A model generated the notes under the pieces. That model had not been told where the DNA came from and made no database searches. It worked only from the letters and a program-made list of their open reading frames with translations. The position numbers were made by a program, and so were the translations under genes. Positions 40,146-47,319 of a DNA stretch of 64,000 nt are shown in pieces (position 1 is the first letter of the stretch; each line of letters begins with the position of its first letter). Origin of the DNA: Echinicola arenosa (GTDB taxonomy: Bacteria; Bacteroidota; Bacteroidia; Cytophagales; Cyclobacteriaceae). Where the stretch lies: NCBI RefSeq assembly GCF_014841125.1, contig NZ_JACYTQ010000002.1, forward strand, positions 744,001 to 808,000, written 5' to 3'.

Positions 40146-40841
40146 TTAAGCTTTGTATCTCCACAATCTCCACCAAGGAGTTCCAGGAGAATCATGATGT
40201 TCATAATGATACCCAAAAAAATAACACGTTAGAAACGCCCAAAAATGATTTTTTTTCATGCTCCCAGACTGATGCTTATTATCATGCTCTCCCTTGTGAG
40301 GCAAATAAGTCCCAAAATAAAATAGCTGAAAGGTGGACAAAATAGCAGGTAGCATCCAATAGAACACCAAATTTTCAACAGGATAAACCAGCCTGAGCAA
40401 TTGAAACGCAACTCCCATCAATACCAATTGACCTAATGAAAGATAGGTTTTTATAAAGCTCCAATACCAAGGCCAAAAATCACCTGATTCATGATAATCC
40501 GGGTCACCTGCGGAAGCTACAAAGCGATGGTGATCATGATGTTTTGGAAATAACTTATGGTAAAAATTAAAAGAAAAAAGGATGGCACAAAACCAGCCAA
40601 TGGCTTTATTTAGCCTTTTATTGGAGGATACGGTTCCATGCATAGCATCATGGGCCGTGATAAAAAGCCCGGTATAAAGATGCATTTGAAGCAGGACTCC
40701 CATGTAAGTCAGGGGATTGGAATAATCCATTTCCCAGTTAAGAAAAAATAGAAGAGATAGAAACCATATCAAAATAATTCCCAAAGCAATGATAGTTCCC
40801 ATTGGATCGACTGGCCGATATTTTTCTTTGACAAAAGACAT
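40146..40841 (-). CDS. crtW: Beta-carotene ketolase (CrtW-type di-iron membrane enzyme)
   Basis: 231 residues from ATG 40841. Four hydrophobic segments and three His clusters, HDAMHG, HHDHHR and HYEHHD, with FGTYLPHKGEH, as in CrtW ketolases. It should add 4-keto groups to beta-ionone rings. It sits 36 nt after ispH in the carotenoid operon, supporting the ketolase call over a general fatty-acid desaturase. Substrate (beta-carotene versus zeaxanthin) cannot be fixed. Confidence 0.87.
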   Translation of the reverse strand: MSFVKEKYRPVDPMGTIIALGIILIWFLSLLFFLNWEMDYSNPLTYMGVLLQMHLYTGLFITAHDAMHGTVSSNKRLNKAIGWFCAILFSFNFYHKLFPKHHDHHRFVASAGDPDYHESGDFWPWYWSFIKTYLSLGQLVLMGVAFQLLRLVYPVENLVFYWMLPAILSTFQLFYFGTYLPHKGEHDNKHQSGSMKKNHFWAFLTCYFFGYHYEHHDSPGTPWWRLWRYKA

Positions 40842-40877
40842 ATTTTCCTCCAAGATACTGTAAGATAAAAATATCTT

Positions 40878-41723
40878 TTAAAAGTTCAGCAAGCGGTCCC
40901 TGACCTCCTCCATCAACCACCTAGGTGTAGAAGTCGCTCCACAGATACCTATCGTTTCATTGGAATTGAACCATGACGGTTTTACTTGATCTGCATTGGA
41001 GACAAAATAGGTTTCAGTATTCTGACTTTTACAAACTTCATAAAGGGCCTTACCGTTACTTGATTTGCTTCCACTCACAAAAACGACTTTATCGAATTTT
41101 GTCGAAAACTTTCTCAATTCTTTATCTCGGTTGGAGACCTGTCGACAGATGGTATCATTGGTCTGAACCGTAATGCCCTTTTCTTCCAATATCCGGTTGA
41201 TTTCATAAAACCTATCTGTACTTTTGGTAGTCTGACTGAAAAGGGTAATCCTTTCAGGCATATTGTCCAAGTCCAATTCTTCAATATTTTGAAATACTAC
41301 CGCCTCATGCTTTGTCTGACCTAATAGGCCTTCTACCTCAGCATGCCCATGTTTACCAAAAATATAGATCCTATCCTTTCGGTCAAAGGCATTCTTAATC
41401 CTATTTTGAAGCTTTAGCACAACTGGACAACTTGCATCGACCAAAGTAAGGTCATTTTTCAGTGCTAACTCATAGGTAGTTGGGGGTTCTCCATGGGCCC
41501 TGATCAAGACCTTTTCATTTTTTAAATCTTTTAAAAATTCTCGATCTATAATTTTAAGACCCTTGCTTACCAAACGGCTGACTTCCTCATCATTATGTAC
41601 TATATCCCCCAGGCAATATAGGTGCCCCTCTTCATCAAGGATTTCCTCTGCCATCTCTATGGCATATACTACACCAAAACAAAAACCAGAATTAGGATCG
41701 ATATGTACTTTGAGATCTAACAT
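40878..41723 (-). CDS. ispH: 4-hydroxy-3-methylbut-2-enyl diphosphate reductase (IspH)
   Basis: 281-residue [4Fe-4S] enzyme of the MEP pathway making IPP and DMAPP. The three cluster cysteines lie in GFCFGV, DASCPVV and GICGATSTP; conserved IRAHGEPP and DTICRQVSNRD are present. Being embedded in the crt operon (3 nt after the cyclase, 36 nt before crtW) couples precursor supply to pigment synthesis. Confidence 0.97.
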   Translation of the reverse strand: MLDLKVHIDPNSGFCFGVVYAIEMAEEILDEEGHLYCLGDIVHNDEEVSRLVSKGLKIIDREFLKDLKNEKVLIRAHGEPPTTYELALKNDLTLVDASCPVVLKLQNRIKNAFDRKDRIYIFGKHGHAEVEGLLGQTKHEAVVFQNIEELDLDNMPERITLFSQTTKSTDRFYEINRILEEKGITVQTNDTICRQVSNRDKELRKFSTKFDKVVFVSGSKSSNGKALYEVCKSQNTETYFVSNADQVKPSWFNSNETIGICGATSTPRWLMEEVRDRLLNF

Positions 41724-41726
41724 ATC

Positions 41727-42437
41727 TTATAAACCCAAAGGGCTTTGGATTGTTTTTCTTTGCTTGATTTTTTCATAAATAGAAATATTCATCAGCATCA
41801 GTCCCATAGAATAGATAAAGTCTTCTATAGGGATAGTAAATACGCGTAGCCCCAAATTTTCTGCGTCATCATAAAACACCACAGGTTCAGATGTAAATGC
41901 TCCTGTCAAGGTGCCGTTGAACAGTAAAAACGGTATCAAATGCACCAAGTAAAACACATAAAATCTTCCTAAAATTTTATCCCTAAAGAAATAATAATGA
42001 ATGGCCAGCAGGAGGGCTACCAAAGTAAAGTTCACCCCGGTATACCATTTGTCAAGGTTTAGGATTCCTATAACAACCAAGACTCCTATGAGCAAAAGTG
42101 TAATGCCTTTGGTAATCGATACCGTTGGTCTTTGAGGAAAATAAAATTGGAGTACTTCATAAATAAAAATAGTTGAGAAGGGGACAATGATGAAAAAAAG
42201 ACATTCCTCTAAAGGCAAACTACCCAAGTATATACCTGTTAAATATTTTTCATTGAAGCCCCACACCCCCATCACTGTAAACCACTGATCCCAAGCCAAA
42301 TATAAAGCAGCAGTAAAAAAAATGGCTGGAAATAACGCAAACCACTTTTTAGCATATCTTACCTTAGACTCAAATGACCAAAGCAAAGGGAACAATAATG
42401 TCGCAATGTTTAATATCAAATAGAGATATTTCTCCAT
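41727..42437 (-). CDS. Fused heterodimeric-type lycopene cyclase (CrtYcd/CarR-like)
   Basis: 236 residues, six or seven membrane helices. Two copies of the small cyclase domain are visible: the first with LPLEECLFFIIVPFSTIF, the second with VFTIPIEDFIYSMGLMLMN; the PxE(E) motifs mark each half, as in actinobacterial CrtYc/CrtYd and the fused archaeal/Bacteroidota forms. It cyclises lycopene to beta-ionone ends. It lies 3 nt from crtB and 3 nt from ispH. Confidence 0.85.
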   Translation of the reverse strand: MEKYLYLILNIATLLFPLLWSFESKVRYAKKWFALFPAIFFTAALYLAWDQWFTVMGVWGFNEKYLTGIYLGSLPLEECLFFIIVPFSTIFIYEVLQFYFPQRPTVSITKGITLLLIGVLVVIGILNLDKWYTGVNFTLVALLLAIHYYFFRDKILGRFYVFYLVHLIPFLLFNGTLTGAFTSEPVVFYDDAENLGLRVFTIPIEDFIYSMGLMLMNISIYEKIKQRKTIQSPLGL

Positions 42438-42440
42438 GTG

Positions 42441-43286
42441 CTACTCCTCTAACCCTAATTTTGATCCAAAGTAAATACTTAAAAGCAATGACAGCTTTTT
42501 GATATTAGGGATTCGCACCCTTCTTAAAGTAATCGTTTCTGGTTCTAACTTCTTAATCTTACGAAACAGATTCAAATAATATAAATAGGCTATTTTGACC
42601 CCAATTTTTGCACCAACAGGCAATCGCTTTATCCCCTCATAGGCATCATCAAAGTCTTTTTGAATATCCTCTTCAATTTCTTTTTTCTTTGTACGATTAA
42701 AATTTTTATAATCCACTTCCGGAAAATAAACCCTTCCTCTTTCTTCATAATCACTTTTGATATCCCTCAAGAAATTGACCTTTTGAAATGCCGAGCCTAA
42801 TTTGCAAGCTGGTAATTTCAGTTGTTCATATTCTTCCTGATTTCCTTCGCAAAACACCTTCAAACACATCAAGCCAACTACCTCTGCAGATCCGTAGATG
42901 TATTGTTTGTATTTACTATCATTGTAAAGGCTAAAATCAAGATCCATAGCCATACTATCCAGAAATGCATCAATAAGCTCCTTCTCAATCCCATACTGAT
43001 GTACCACTATTTGAAAAGCATGTAAGACAGGATTCATACTTATTTTTTGATCTATAGCTTCATAAGTATCTTCCCGGAATTTATCCAAAAGATACTTTTT
43101 ATCCTTATGGTGAAAAGTATCTACAATCTCATCTGCAAAACGCACAAAACCATAAATACCATATATTGGGCTGTGAAGCTTCTGATCCATCACCCGAATG
43201 CCTAAACTAAAAGAAGTACTGTACTTTTGAGTAATCAGTTTGCTACACGCTAGCGTCGTCTGATGGTATAAATTAAGAGCATCCAT
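42441..43286 (-). CDS. crtB: Phytoene synthase
   Basis: 281-residue prenyl-head-to-head synthase joining two GGPP. Signatures: RFADEIVD (first Asp-rich region), YIYGSAEVVGLMCLKVF, and QKVNFLRDIKSDYEERGRVYFP (second Asp region). It is 6 nt after crtI and 3 nt before the cyclase gene. No GGPP synthase gene lies in the window. Confidence 0.96.
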   Translation of the reverse strand: MDALNLYHQTTLACSKLITQKYSTSFSLGIRVMDQKLHSPIYGIYGFVRFADEIVDTFHHKDKKYLLDKFREDTYEAIDQKISMNPVLHAFQIVVHQYGIEKELIDAFLDSMAMDLDFSLYNDSKYKQYIYGSAEVVGLMCLKVFCEGNQEEYEQLKLPACKLGSAFQKVNFLRDIKSDYEERGRVYFPEVDYKNFNRTKKKEIEEDIQKDFDDAYEGIKRLPVGAKIGVKIAYLYYLNLFRKIKKLEPETITLRRVRIPNIKKLSLLLSIYFGSKLGLEE

Positions 43287-43292
43287 GGTTTG

Positions 43293-44789
43293 TTAGTTTT
43301 GAGGGGCTATTGAAAATTTCTGTTTGATAATCTCGTGCGCCACTACCTGGCCTGAGATTAAAGAGGGGGGCACTCCTGGACCCGGTACAGTAAGTTGCCC
43401 AGTATAATATAAATTTTTGAGTTTTTTGTTCCTCAATTTTGGCTTCAACAGTGCTGTTTGACCTAAAGTATTCGCCAATCCATATGCATTACCTTTAAAA
43501 GCATTATAATCCGAAATAAAATCTCGGTGTGCATAAGACCTGCGATAGATCACATGTTCTATGATACTTTGCCCTGTAAGCTTCTCTAATCTATCCATCA
43601 CCAATTGAAAATACTCTTCTCTCTTGGCATCAGAATCCTCTAAATCTGGGGCAAGGGGAATGAGGATAAAAAGGTTTTCTTTGCCTTCTGGTGCCACGGT
43701 AGGATCTGTCTTCGAAGGGCAACACACGTAAAACAATGGCTTCTCTGGCCAGTCCGGGTTTTCATAAATTGCCGCTGCATGAGGTTCCAGAGGTTCATCA
43801 AAAAAGAGGTTGTGATGGTCTAGGTTTTTCAGTTTCTTATCAATGCCCAAATAAAAAATAAGGCTGGAAGGAGCTAGGGTTCTTTTGTCCCAATAAGTAT
43901 CAGAATAATTTCTGCAGTCAGGTGGCAGTAGAACACTATCCACATGGTGATAGTCCGCTCCCGCAATCACAATATCTGCAAGGAAAGACCTATCATCTGT
44001 CAAATGAACTGCCTTGGCCTCTCCATTTTGTACTTTAATATGGCTTACATCAGCATTGTAGACAAACTCAACTCCCCTTTCTTCCGCTAATGCGACCATT
44101 CCTTTGATGATCTCGTGCATACCTCCCATAGGATACCAAGTACCCAAAACCATATCCGCATAGTTCATCAAGCTGTAAAGCGCTGGTATTTTCTCCGCTG
44201 TCTGACCCAGGAAAAGTACAGGGAACTCCATCAGCATTACCAGTTTTTCATTTTTGAAAAACTTGCTCACATGCTTTTTCATGGAATTAAAAATATCCAG
44301 CTTGATCAAGTCATTAATTATTCCAGGCTGCGCAAATTCCCATATGGACTGACCTGGCTTGTATACCCAATCCTGAATACCTACTTTATATTTGTGGGCG
44401 GCTTGCCCCAGAAATTTCTCCAGCTGTTCTGCAGCTCCTACTTCAATTGATTCAAACAATTCCTTTAATCGACCTAAATCAGCAGGCATATCAATCTGAT
44501 CACCCTTACCAAAAAAAACCTTATAGGAAGGATCCAGTCTTACAAGCTTATAATAATCGGAAGTTTTTTTTCCGAATTGCGCAAAATAACTATCAAACAC
44601 ATCTGGCATCCAATACCAACTTGGCCCCATATCAAAAGTAAATCCCTCAGCGGTAAATTTTCGAGCGCGACCTCCGGGACTATCGTTTTTCTCCAATAAC
44701 GTTACCCGATAGCCTTGATTGGCTAACCTAGTGGCTGCTGCAATACCCGCAAAGCCTGCACCTATTACCACTACTTGTTCGTTGGTCAT
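43293..44789 (-). CDS. crtI: Phytoene desaturase
   Basis: 498-residue FAD enzyme converting phytoene to lycopene in four steps. The N-terminal dinucleotide-binding VVVIGAGFAGIAAATRLA plus LLEKNDSPGGRA, and the C-terminal TGQLTVPGPGVPPSLISGQ, are CrtI signatures. ATG 44789 (MTNEQVVVIG) is chosen instead of an upstream TTG at 44798; it then starts 1 nt after the sigma-factor stop, so the two are tightly coupled. Confidence 0.96.
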   Translation of the reverse strand: MTNEQVVVIGAGFAGIAAATRLANQGYRVTLLEKNDSPGGRARKFTAEGFTFDMGPSWYWMPDVFDSYFAQFGKKTSDYYKLVRLDPSYKVFFGKGDQIDMPADLGRLKELFESIEVGAAEQLEKFLGQAAHKYKVGIQDWVYKPGQSIWEFAQPGIINDLIKLDIFNSMKKHVSKFFKNEKLVMLMEFPVLFLGQTAEKIPALYSLMNYADMVLGTWYPMGGMHEIIKGMVALAEERGVEFVYNADVSHIKVQNGEAKAVHLTDDRSFLADIVIAGADYHHVDSVLLPPDCRNYSDTYWDKRTLAPSSLIFYLGIDKKLKNLDHHNLFFDEPLEPHAAAIYENPDWPEKPLFYVCCPSKTDPTVAPEGKENLFILIPLAPDLEDSDAKREEYFQLVMDRLEKLTGQSIIEHVIYRRSYAHRDFISDYNAFKGNAYGLANTLGQTALLKPKLRNKKLKNLYYTGQLTVPGPGVPPSLISGQVVAHEIIKQKFSIAPQN

Positions 44790-44790
44790 T

Positions 44791-45300
44791 TTAGTCAAGC
44801 TTGTAAACCTTTAGATCATCTTTCAAGATTTTCCTCGCAATATGGATTCTGTTTTTGACCGTTCCGATTGGCAAATCTAAATTCTCAGCTATTTCCTGAT
44901 ATTTCCATCCTTTAAAGTACATCATGAATGGAACCTGATACACATCATCTAATCTATCAATGCATTTATTGATATCTTTTAAGGCAAACTCACCGGGAGC
45001 TCCATTTTCCACTGCTGTATCTCCTGAGTTAATATAATGTAAATTATCCGTTGTATCTACAAATGTTGCTCTTCTTACCATTCTTTGGTAATTGGTTATG
45101 AAGGTATTTTTCATAATGGTATATAACCAAGCTTTCAGGTTGGTACCATCCGAAAACTTATCTCTATTCGTAAATGCTTTGAGAACTGTGTCCTGCAGCA
45201 AATCATTTGCTTCGTCCAGGTCCTTGGTCAGCCTGAGAGCAAAAGGCTTAAGTGACTTAGAATGCTGATTTAGGGTATAACTGAATTCAAGAGTTGTCAT
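44791..45300 (-). CDS. ECF sigma factor heading the carotenoid operon
   Basis: 169 residues from ATG 45300; the TTG at 45324 falls inside the promoter. Region 2: LTKDLDEANDLLQDTVLKAF and NLKAWLYTIMKNTFITNYQR; region 4: YQVPFMMYFKGWKYQEIAENL followed by DLPIGTVKNRIHIARKIL. No anti-sigma gene is adjacent, so control is probably at transcription by the CarH-like regulator upstream. This matches the LitR-LitS pairing known in Streptomyces by analogy. It likely activates carotenoid or light-stress genes, possibly its own operon. Confidence 0.93.
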   Translation of the reverse strand: MTTLEFSYTLNQHSKSLKPFALRLTKDLDEANDLLQDTVLKAFTNRDKFSDGTNLKAWLYTIMKNTFITNYQRMVRRATFVDTTDNLHYINSGDTAVENGAPGEFALKDINKCIDRLDDVYQVPFMMYFKGWKYQEIAENLDLPIGTVKNRIHIARKILKDDLKVYKLD

Positions 45301-45312
45301 AGCTTGATTTTT

Positions 45313-45387
45313 TTGTTTAATCAAATATAGTTTTTATTAAACAAAATAAAAATATTTGTTTAATTTTTTTTTCATATCATTAAACAA
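45313..45387. promoter_or_regulatory. Double operator and promoter of the sigma-crt operon
   Basis: Four copies of one 8-mer: TTGTTTAA at 45313-45320 and 45356-45363, inverted TTAAACAA at 45337-45344 and 45380-45387. Each pair has the same 16-nt spacer and the pairs repeat with a 43-bp period. A minus-strand -7 box TATATTTG (45322-45329) lies between the halves of the first pair, so binding there would block the promoter. The same motif recurs upstream of crtZ-carH. Confidence 0.7.
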
Positions 45388-45408
45388 AAATTTATTTAGC
45401 ATAAAAAA

Positions 45409-45422
45409 AGGGCTATTGCCCT
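45409..45422 (-). terminator. Intrinsic terminator of the crtZ-carH operon
   Basis: AGGGC / GCCCT 5-bp stem with a TATT loop on the plus strand; on the minus strand it is followed directly by TTTTTTT. It separates the carH transcript from the sigma-crt promoter. Confidence 0.75.
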
Positions 45423-45486
45423 CGTGATTCTATAAAACATGATTAATATCTTTCTTCCTTATTTAGATCGTAGAACCTTGAAGAAA

Positions 45487-46383
45487 TCAGTTCTTATTAA
45501 TTACCTTTCTATCCTCTTGTAAATAAAATTTAACCTCTTCTATTTTATTCATTATCATGACATTCTCAGGCACCTCAACTTCGCCTCTAATAACCTGATA
45601 CCCCGATACGATAATGGTACTCTTCGGAAAAGTTCGGCTAAGCTCACAAAGGTATTTCTCCACAAACTCTACTTCAGGGGAAGTTGTAAGTACCGTGATC
45701 AAATAATCTGGTTGATGAAACTTATAAACTTCTAACAAGTCTTCTTGCGGAGTGCTCTGTCCAAGATAAATCACCTTATGCCCTTCCCTTTTGATCAAAT
45801 AAGCAGCAAAAAGAAGTGAAATTTCATGCAGCTCTCCCTCAGGCAAAAAGAGCATAAACTTCTTCCCCCCGCCTTGATAAACATACCGATCGATCGCCAC
45901 AATCAGTTTTTGCCTGATCAAATTACTGATAAAATGCTCTTGAGCTGGAGAGATTGCACCTATTTGCCATAAAACACCGATTTTAGACAAAAAGGGATAA
46001 ATAACACTTAACATAGTTTCATCAAAACCAATACTTCTCGTATTGATTGATAGAATACGATCAAAGCCCTCTTCATCAATTTCTATCATACAAACAGTAA
46101 GGGCATAGATCTGATCCTCATAAGCCATTGCACCTTCTGTCAATGCAATGATCTTATCCCGCATCTCCTCAGCACTCATCTTTGCAATCTTGGAGATTTT
46201 AAAGCCATTGTTGTTCAGCAAAGAAACATTGAGGATCAATTTCAAATCCGCATCATCATAATACCTTATATTGGTATCTGTTCTTTTTGGTTCTACCAAA
46301 TTGTAACGTTGCTCCCAAATCCGGATGGTATGTGCCTTGATCCCTGAAAGGTGCTCCAAATCCTTTATCGAATAACTACTCAT
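45487..46383 (-). CDS. carH: CarH/LitR-like MerR regulator with B12-binding photosensor domain
   Basis: 298 residues. N-terminal MerR winged helix: YSIKDLEHLSGIKAHTIRIWEQRY and TNIRYYDDADLKLI. The C-terminal B12-binding region has the W-x9-EH motif (W139, E149, H150) that shields adenosylcobalamin in CarH, and EGELHE (H186), at the distance expected for the lower cobalt ligand; IKREGHKVIYLGQSTP is the Rossmann-like half. In CarH, dark tetramers bind operators and light cleaves the Co-C bond and releases DNA. Its ATG overlaps the crtZ stop by 4 nt (ATGA). Light control is inferred from family knowledge. Confidence 0.88.
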   Translation of the reverse strand: MSSYSIKDLEHLSGIKAHTIRIWEQRYNLVEPKRTDTNIRYYDDADLKLILNVSLLNNNGFKISKIAKMSAEEMRDKIIALTEGAMAYEDQIYALTVCMIEIDEEGFDRILSINTRSIGFDETMLSVIYPFLSKIGVLWQIGAISPAQEHFISNLIRQKLIVAIDRYVYQGGGKKFMLFLPEGELHEISLLFAAYLIKREGHKVIYLGQSTPQEDLLEVYKFHQPDYLITVLTTSPEVEFVEKYLCELSRTFPKSTIIVSGYQVIRGEVEVPENVMIMNKIEEVKFYLQEDRKVINKN

Positions 46384-46829
46384 TTCTTCCCTTCTTTAAA
46401 GTATTTTAGTGGAACTAGTAAGAGACCGAAAGCCTCTGTTCCCTTTTTTTTATTATTGGCATGATGGGCTTGATGAGCCTTAAATATACCCCTAAAGAAG
46501 CTATTTCTATTTGGCCTTTTCATCCACTTTCCCCTTCTGTGGATCAGAACATCATGCAACACAAAATAACCAGCTCCATAAATGGTAATCCCCAATCCCA
46601 TCCAGAATCTGTAATCCAGCTGCTCAAAACCAAGAACCATTAAAATGATCGAAACACTCCCAAATAGCAGTGAAAATATGTCATTAAGCTCAAATGCCCC
46701 CTTAGAGCGCTGATGGTGCGTCCTGTGAATTCTCCATAGCAATCCATGCATGATATACTTATGGATAAACCAACCAGAAATCTCCATCAGGAAAAAACCT
46801 AAAATCACAAATAGTAGTGCAAATAACAT
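46380..46829 (-). CDS. crtZ: Beta-carotene hydroxylase
   Basis: 149-residue di-iron membrane hydroxylase. Four His clusters: HKYIMH, HRTHH, HDVLIH and HQAHH, with about four helices, as in CrtZ. It adds 3-hydroxyl groups to beta-ionone rings. It starts the carH operon rather than the main crt operon, but both have the same kind of operator. Together with CrtW it could yield astaxanthin-like products. Confidence 0.93.
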   Translation of the reverse strand: MLFALLFVILGFFLMEISGWFIHKYIMHGLLWRIHRTHHQRSKGAFELNDIFSLLFGSVSIILMVLGFEQLDYRFWMGLGITIYGAGYFVLHDVLIHRRGKWMKRPNRNSFFRGIFKAHQAHHANNKKKGTEAFGLLLVPLKYFKEGKK

Positions 46830-46953
46830 GAATTGATAACCTTTTGTAGATTAAAATGTTTGCAGTGTCACAAATAAAACTCCCAATTCTGCTTTAATTT
46901 GTTTCAATACAGCTCAAACCATCCAAAATATCTATTTTTGTAACCAGATACAT

Positions 46954-47005
46954 TTAAGCAAAAATAAATATTTTGTTTAACTATAACTATTTGAACAATA
47001 AACAA
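46954..47005. promoter_or_regulatory. Operator region upstream of crtZ-carH
   Basis: TTAAGCAA (46954-46961), TTGTTTAA (46973-46980) and ATAAACAA (46998-47005). The first two form a 27-bp palindrome with the same 11-nt spacer as the inner half-sites of the sigma-crt promoter (45337-45363), agreeing at 21 of 27 positions; the third half-site follows at nearly the same distance. A minus-strand TATTTTTG (46959-46966) inside the palindrome fits a -7 box for crtZ. The divergent DUF4286-like gene may share the site. Confidence 0.65.
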
Positions 47006-47016
47006 AATCTGATAAA

Positions 47017-47319
47017 ATGATTTTATACAATATTACAGTAAATATTGACCAAGATGTGGAGAAGGAATGGGTACAATGGATGAAGGCTACCCATATTCCC
47101 AAAGTAATGGAAACCGGCCTATTCAATGAATTTAAGTTCTACAAGCTTTTGCATGAAATGGAAGGCGGAGGAGTTAATTATTCCGTCCAATATTTTGCGG
47201 AAAGCATGGATCATGTCTTGGATTACCAAAACAACCATGATATGAAGATTCATGAAGTCTTCAATAAAAAATACAATAACAAATACGCTCTATTCAGATC
47301 TGTTTTAGAACAGGTTTAA
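47017..47319 (+). CDS. DUF4286 family protein
   Basis: 100 residues. MILYNITVNIDQDVEKEWVQWM and HIPKVMETGLFNEFKFYKLL are the usual features of this small Bacteroidota family with a dimeric alpha-beta barrel appearance. Function unknown. It is divergent from crtZ with the carotenoid-type operator in its upstream region, so it might respond to the same signal, but its housekeeping distribution argues for caution. A bidirectional hairpin at 47321-47356 follows. Confidence 0.8.
   Translation: MILYNITVNIDQDVEKEWVQWMKATHIPKVMETGLFNEFKFYKLLHEMEGGGVNYSVQYFAESMDHVLDYQNNHDMKIHEVFNKKYNNKYALFRSVLEQV

Follow-up and report, generated by a model that had tools for sequence, protein, structure and literature searches.

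A 32-bp palindrome at carotenoid and other light-related promoters is a probable operator of a CarH-like B12 photoreceptor in Echinicola and related Bacteroidota

The window, the 64,000-nucleotide stretch of Echinicola arenosa DNA analysed here, is part of a 5.39 Mb genome (contig 12) and carries two exact copies of a palindrome in front of its sigma-crtI carotenoid operon. The repeated word is very probably where a B12-dependent, CarH-like light sensor binds. We consider it likely that both palindromes are operators of the CarH-like B12 photoreceptor encoded next to them, which would repress in the dark, let go in the light and serve a wider regulon. In many relatives the palindrome recurs upstream of genes for carotenoids, light pumps, DNA repair and pterins, which suggests one common light switch.

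On the minus strand, the gene order is crtZ-carH followed by sigma-crtI-crtB-lycopene cyclase-ispH-desaturase-like gene, with four half-sites between carH and sigma. The features of the locus are listed below.

46973..47005, minus strand: predicted imperfect crtZ-carH operator of 33 bp, with one mismatch in each 9-mer arm and a spacer longer by one base
46954..46961, minus strand: extra half-site TTAAGCAA, whose 19-nt step to the crtZ site is an 11-nt gap in the window
46380..46829, minus strand: crtZ-like hydroxylase gene, head of the crtZ-carH transcription unit, with a 4-bp overlap with carH
45487..46383, minus strand: CarH-like photoreceptor gene, encoding MerR HTH, B12-binding four-helix and Rossmann domains
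45356..45387, minus strand: predicted distal operator, an exact palindrome just upstream of -33 and 43 bp further upstream than the proximal copy
45313..45344, minus strand: predicted proximal operator, an exact TTGTTTAAT-N14-ATTAAACAA with the -7 box of the sigma-crtI promoter inside it
45322..45329, minus strand: presumed -7 promoter box TATATTTG, within the proximal operator
44791..45300, minus strand: ECF sigma factor gene, head of the sigma-crtI operon and predicted target of both operators
43293..44798, minus strand: crtI, phytoene desaturase (NCBIfam CrtID above cut-off)
42441..43286, minus strand: crtB, phytoene synthase
41727..42437, minus strand: lycopene cyclase gene
40878..41723, minus strand: ispH/lytB gene
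40146..40853, minus strand: fatty-acid-desaturase-fold gene, which closes the conserved cluster

The last gene in the list probably encodes a carotenoid ketolase or hydroxylase, a name that we infer. The closest named relatives of the carH protein come from three Echinicola species (76-78% identity). One scan yielded 45 named loci, mainly from Echinicola, Algoriphagus, Pontibacter and Rufibacter; the order crtZ-carH-sigma-crtI was kept in 38 of them, the others being without part of the order or ending too early.

The original prediction had described four half-sites upstream of sigma as two inverted pairs with 16-nt spacers and a 43-bp period, and both coordinates and spacing were confirmed: TTGTTTAA occurs at 45313 and 45356 and its inverse at 45337 and 45380. 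The full repeated unit exceeds this 8-mer, being the palindrome TTGTTTAAT-N14-ATTAAACAA in two copies. By itself TTGTTTAA is not rare, as the window holds 12 copies where 7.1 are expected and 8 of 100 shuffles reached an equally high number. The spaced pair is rare. Among 200,000 random 100-mers that matched the neighbour statistics of this DNA, one such pair appeared in two and two pairs in none, and in 3,000 random 100-mers no 8-mer with at least three different bases formed two inverted pairs that shared a spacer length between 4 and 29 nt. The exact palindrome occurs three times in the 5.39 Mb genome, twice at the sigma-crtI promoter and once, on a different contig, 60 nt before a fasciclin-domain gene, and copies with one mismatch were not found anywhere in the genome. 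Looser pairs beyond the exact ones numbered 11 vs 15 in the control for 8-mer arms with up to two mismatches, and 21 vs 16 for 9-mer arms with up to three (24 places once the exact copies are included). An imperfect site of this kind, with two mismatches to the 8-mer arms, lies on contig 1, 84 nt upstream of a PTPS gene whose reading frame overlaps that of GTP cyclohydrolase I (L004:348-1416); such sites occur at control frequency, and it is its place alone that is suggestive of an operator.

The link between the palindrome and carH was examined across genomes by counting palindromes with at most one mismatch, with the reversed pattern as control and mirrored arms as a second control. In the 148 genomes of the family, 171 palindromes were found vs 10 for the reversed control and 3 for the mirrored arms; 85 of 128 carH-bearing genomes had the palindrome, vs 3 of 20 without carH. 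Presence was called by E-value (carH 1e-30, sigma 1e-28, crtI 1e-100). The 345 genomes of the class gave 197 sites vs 17 for the control, and a composition artefact was rejected on the strength of these class, family and mirrored-arm counts. The random scatter over A/T-rich DNA without spacing preference, which the original prediction had named as its refutation, was not seen. The sites went with carH, as had been proposed: 119 of 216 carH-bearing genomes of the class carried at least one (189 sites vs 8 in the control) vs 7 of 129 genomes without carH, in which 8 sites vs 9 control sites amount to the control level. The Fisher p for this association is 2e-23, with related genomes treated as independent. 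The link was also seen within families, with a Mantel-Haenszel (MH) odds ratio of 8.2 (p 5e-6) over 21 families containing both states, a stratification at family level only, with members typed by hand from the class listing. One family (f61) ran the opposite way, its sole genome without carH having a site and both carH-bearing genomes having none. The carotenoid cluster itself, represented by crtI, was rejected as the true correlate: a site was found in 104 of 177 genomes with carH and crtI, 15 of 39 with carH only, 2 of 23 with crtI only and 5 of 106 with neither, and the 23 genomes with crtI only held 2 sites vs 3 control sites. At up to one mismatch, 97 of the 216 carH-bearing genomes had no site, and two families with carH had hardly any (f11, 1 of 9; f42, 0 of 4); there the operator may differ, or the CarH-like protein may read another sequence.

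The CarH-like protein begins with a MerR-type HTH (PF13411, E 1.7e-16), on which the model and a PDB match agree. Its B12 domains scored above the cut-off for PF02607 and just below it for PF02310 (30.9 vs 32.1 bits), and the NCBIfam CarH model (TransRegCarH) gave 94.8 bits, under its cut-off of 400. The best solved relatives are Thermus CarH, both by PDB sequence and by predicted fold (Foldseek; mean pLDDT 85.9). The structure alignment had 29 rows, with L076 excluded for a stop in the stretch and L075, L079, L081 and other close relatives omitted. In a set of 98 proteins (94 distinct), W139, E149, H150, E184 and H186 were invariant, G136, G208 and P212 were likewise present in all 98, and G183 in 90. 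The window protein contains GxxW, EH, GxxH and GxxxP, described as a light signature (PMC11796333), and retains the AdoCbl residues of CarH, the lower ligand His among them. The position of Thermus H132, the histidine that caps the cobalt as upper ligand after light, is occupied by Gln in 86 of 98 proteins and otherwise by M, V, I or L, never by His. The Thermus H132A protein was mostly tetrameric after light according to one study, against an earlier report of dissociation (PMC10442372), and light-responsive relatives are described with Arg, Gln or Tyr at this position (PMC11796333). H132 is thus absent, yet light-responsive relatives vary at the same position, so release by light is likely, though possibly through a different chemistry. 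The 98 proteins hardly vary in the recognition region, KAHTxRIWEQRY, a constancy that fits one operator used across families. The genome also contains a member of the cobalamin adenosyltransferase family.

TAnnTTTG is the -7 consensus of Bacteroidota promoters, and we take TATATTTG to be the -7 box of the sigma-crtI promoter on this ground. The -7 boxes had been placed within both arrays; this held on the sigma side and was not clear on the crtZ side. The palindromes before sigma were retained in most of the 45 named loci. Two sites, each with at least 13 of 18 matches, were present in 56 of 72 sigma upstream stretches (69 distinct, from related loci). Their spacing was 44 bp in 35 loci, 42-46 bp in 43 and 63-65 bp in 9, these main classes lying about two helical turns apart, and 33, 54, 54 and 73 bp in the remaining four. 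Measured from the left end of the distal site, TAnnTTTG started at 58-60 nt in 42 of the 56 two-site loci and lay elsewhere in five (L062, L070, L074, L227, L237); it was not found in nine of these 56 promoters. In six Pontibacter loci the -7 box was likewise 58-59 nt from the distal site, and the proximal site was weak (11-14 of 18 matches in the loci where it was ranked) and located after the -7 box, near the start codon. The distance from promoter to distal site is kept and the Pontibacter proximal site is both weak and shifted, which suggests that the distal site is tied to the promoter whereas the proximal one varies. This geometry is consistent with two units bound to the same face of the DNA. 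Both sites fell below 13 matches in some Pontibacter loci (L058, L064, L068, L069, L071), and L026, L034 and L037 had a single site before sigma. In all 14 loci from L041 to L054, belonging to 13 Algoriphagus and one Aquiflexum, a third, weaker palindrome (13-16 of 18 matches) was observed 166-186 nt before sigma, near the terminator hairpin that follows carH, and may serve as an auxiliary operator.

The crtZ side is weaker. The original prediction had given the crtZ promoter the same kind of array, with three half-sites. The three half-sites exist, but the arrangement is looser, consisting of one imperfect 33-bp site (arms 46973-46981 and 46997-47005) plus the extra half-site. In L039 and L055 the site is 32 bp long, matches at 16 of 18 positions and lies 139 nt upstream of crtZ. 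A 19-nt start-to-start step had been proposed as common to both promoters; this rule was rejected, as the gap from the extra half-site to the crtZ site is 11 nt in the window, 13 nt in L040 and 8 nt in L055, and an extra crtZ half-site was not seen in L039. Given this varying spacing among relatives, the half-site at 46954 is probably incidental. A divergent DUF4286 gene (47017-47319) starts 11 nt past the end of the crtZ site and might be under the same control; DUF4286-like ORFs were also recognized by eye in the carH loci L151 and L152.

The proposal of a circuit of two carotenoid promoters therefore stood for sigma-crtI and less firmly for crtZ, and proved too narrow, as in related genomes the palindrome is also found upstream of sigma, crtI, crtZ, carH, rhodopsin, photolyase, PTPS/FolE and fasciclin genes. 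The genes behind the sites were surveyed with a simple ORF caller around 111 unique sites, a subset of all sites, namely those with fetched surroundings, many of them hand-chosen from the listed places. Six of the 111 were inside ORFs, and 11 were without a suitable ORF (90 codons) within 300 nt. The 125 adjacent genes included 28 sigma, 16 PTPS, 8 rhodopsin, 8 fasciclin, 4 photolyase, 5 genes of the amine-oxidase family of CrtI, 2 flavin reductase and 2 MerR genes, together with divergent partners of PTPS and rhodopsin (12 L,D-transpeptidases, 5 gyrase B) and neighbours seen once or twice (GTP cyclohydrolase, short-chain dehydrogenase, epimerase, heme oxygenase, YceI). Some sites had no evident light gene nearby (e.g., L125, L149, L192). 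Among the PTPS genes of relatives found via the site, 13 of 16 had it 27-29 nt upstream. One site is flanked by genes for a heme oxygenase and a PAS histidine kinase (L254:1021-3501), a possible link to a bilin photoreceptor.

Rhodopsins were present in 52 of the 148 family genomes, and 30 loci were examined, with proton and sodium pump types presumed from sequence motifs. Seven genes of the proton-pump type with the start MNxxLTA, a type defined after the sites had been seen, all had a site of 15-17 matches 81-84 nt upstream, where shuffles gave about 12 matches and a maximum of 15. Of the other proton-pump-type genes, one in nine reached 15 matches (L169), and among 14 sodium-pump-type genes one reached 16 (L153). 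The site of the latter, with 16 of 18 matches, lies 6 nt before the start codon chosen by the script, unlike the thirteen others. In L118, L119, L124, L127 and L134 the operator-bearing proteorhodopsin gene was divergent from a gyrase-B-type topoisomerase gene.

Known operators provide both likenesses and differences. In Thermus and Bacillus, the tested CarH operators consist of three or four direct repeats of 11 bp in tandem (nnnnTnnACAn); the myxobacterial ones are variants of this 11-bp design, called "remarkably plastic" (PMC9304148). The present system resembles CarH of Thermus thermophilus and Bacillus megaterium (class I LitR) in its MerR HTH and B12 domain, AdoCbl residues, carotenoid targets, an operator overlapping promoter elements and the half-site core TnnACA, whereas the operator here is a 32-bp inverted pair, often two pairs, instead of direct repeats, and H132 is absent. 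The core is present as TAAACA in both arms of 154 unique sites, which were chosen by pattern, so that the core is given by selection. Hidden 11-bp direct repeats were rejected by base frequencies in these sites, where the core C stood at 99% in the arm, 7% at -11 and 22% at +11 over a background of 13%, and an 11-bp tandem register was not seen; the expectation that the operator would be unlike the Thermus repeats was borne out. In Myxococcus xanthus, the CarA/CarH operator at Pcrt likewise has two inverted repeats, one upstream and one overlapping -35, to which two dimers bind cooperatively (PMC8156234, PMC9304148). It differs in its length of about 55 bp, its buried 11-bp repeats and its sequence, and those inverted repeats are degenerate in most relatives, whereas the palindrome here recurs over many families. 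Pseudomonas class II LitR is described as binding TGTACA-N12-TGTACA at two places per promoter (PMC9758184); PmlR2 is alike in having two sites per promoter, at -35 and between start site and ATG, and arms with TGTnnA. PplR1 and PmlR2 differ in a centre-to-centre distance of 18 bp, compared with 24 here, and in having only the four-helix half of the B12 domains. The P. putida LitR regulon comprises photolyase, FolE and a cryptochrome-like protein, PmlR2 acts with a LOV protein, and the accessible text names no rhodopsin or carotenoid operon for the Pseudomonas system (PMC9758184). No CarH operator in Bacteroidota is described in the titles and abstract openings of the matches listed, subscription journals and preprints being outside this scope. 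The system would work like the known CarA/LitR cases, with the operator and the inclusion of rhodopsin being new within the literature searched.

We infer binding by the CarH-like protein, its oligomeric state, dark repression, light release and the role of the sigma factor from the sequence features above. In the dark, an AdoCbl-bound CarH-like repressor would sit on both palindromes. The two operators are about four helical turns apart and so on the same face of the DNA, and since they cover the promoter from just upstream of -33 to past -7, the sigma-crtI-crtB-cyclase operon would be off. Green or blue light would break the Co-C bond, the protein would leave and the operon would be transcribed; the sigma factor made from it may extend the light response. 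The same switch would act here on the fasciclin gene and probably on PTPS-FolE, and in relatives on carH itself, crtZ, crtI, proteorhodopsin and photolyase/cryptochrome.

Other readings of the sites have to be weighed. The palindromes could be read by another regulator that travels with carH and is encoded outside the cluster, with CarH acting elsewhere or through that regulator. Co-occurrence cannot separate a reader from a constant companion, and the CarH operators tested so far are direct repeats (PMC9304148). We nevertheless hold this unlikely: carH alone among the nine cluster genes scanned encodes a repressor-type DNA-binding domain, the TnnACA half-site core suits CarH, and at least 12 of 30 class-level loci (L183-L212) have a site no more than about 1.2 kb from carH, while L208 and L252 have one directly before carH. 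Hardly any credence is due to the alternative offered in the original prediction, that the sites belong to the ECF sigma factor as autoregulated promoter elements. Sites were found in 92 of 176 genomes with carH and sigma, 27 of 40 with carH only, 0 of 21 with sigma only and 7 of 108 with neither. The frequent presence of two sites before sigma speaks for a sigma element, but a sigma promoter does not take the form of a 32-bp palindrome whose distance from the start codon varies, and a TAnnTTTG -7 box is already present. Rather than reading the sites, the sigma factor seems to be under the control of the circuit.

It is also conceivable, if rather improbable, that the CarH-like protein reads the sites but senses B12 or redox state instead of light. 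Gln at the H132 position and the mostly tetrameric state of illuminated Thermus H132A in one of the two conflicting reports point that way; against them stand the photocobilin SasPcob, which has Gln at the same position and is described as responding to green light (PMC11796333), and the targets, which are largely light-protection and phototrophy genes. One report tells against the main reading: Chryseobacterium lacus has light-induced carotenoids, by a mechanism called unknown, although neither car nor lit genes were found in it by its authors (PMC7064467), and routes other than CarH are hence possible in the phylum.

Returning to the CarH-like photoreceptor as reader of the palindromes, it appears fairly probable that a large share of the carH-bearing members of the class uses one 32-bp light operator, through which one repressor would hold in check both photoprotection (carotenoids, photolyase, pterins and fasciclin) and light harvesting, including proteorhodopsin. 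Against this, proteorhodopsin has been called constitutive in Dokdonia PRO95, in a paper stating that the regulation of its expression needs further work (PMC3587595). For the regulation of rhodopsin and carotenoid genes in Bacteroidota, a defined operator, protein and target list make a direct test possible. If the reading is true, the design of CarH operators would extend past direct repeats, and a green-light switch would become available for Bacteroidota genetics. A B12 sensor would then gate light-powered growth in these bacteria, and the supply of B12 would decide whether rhodopsin and carotenoids are light-inducible or constitutive.
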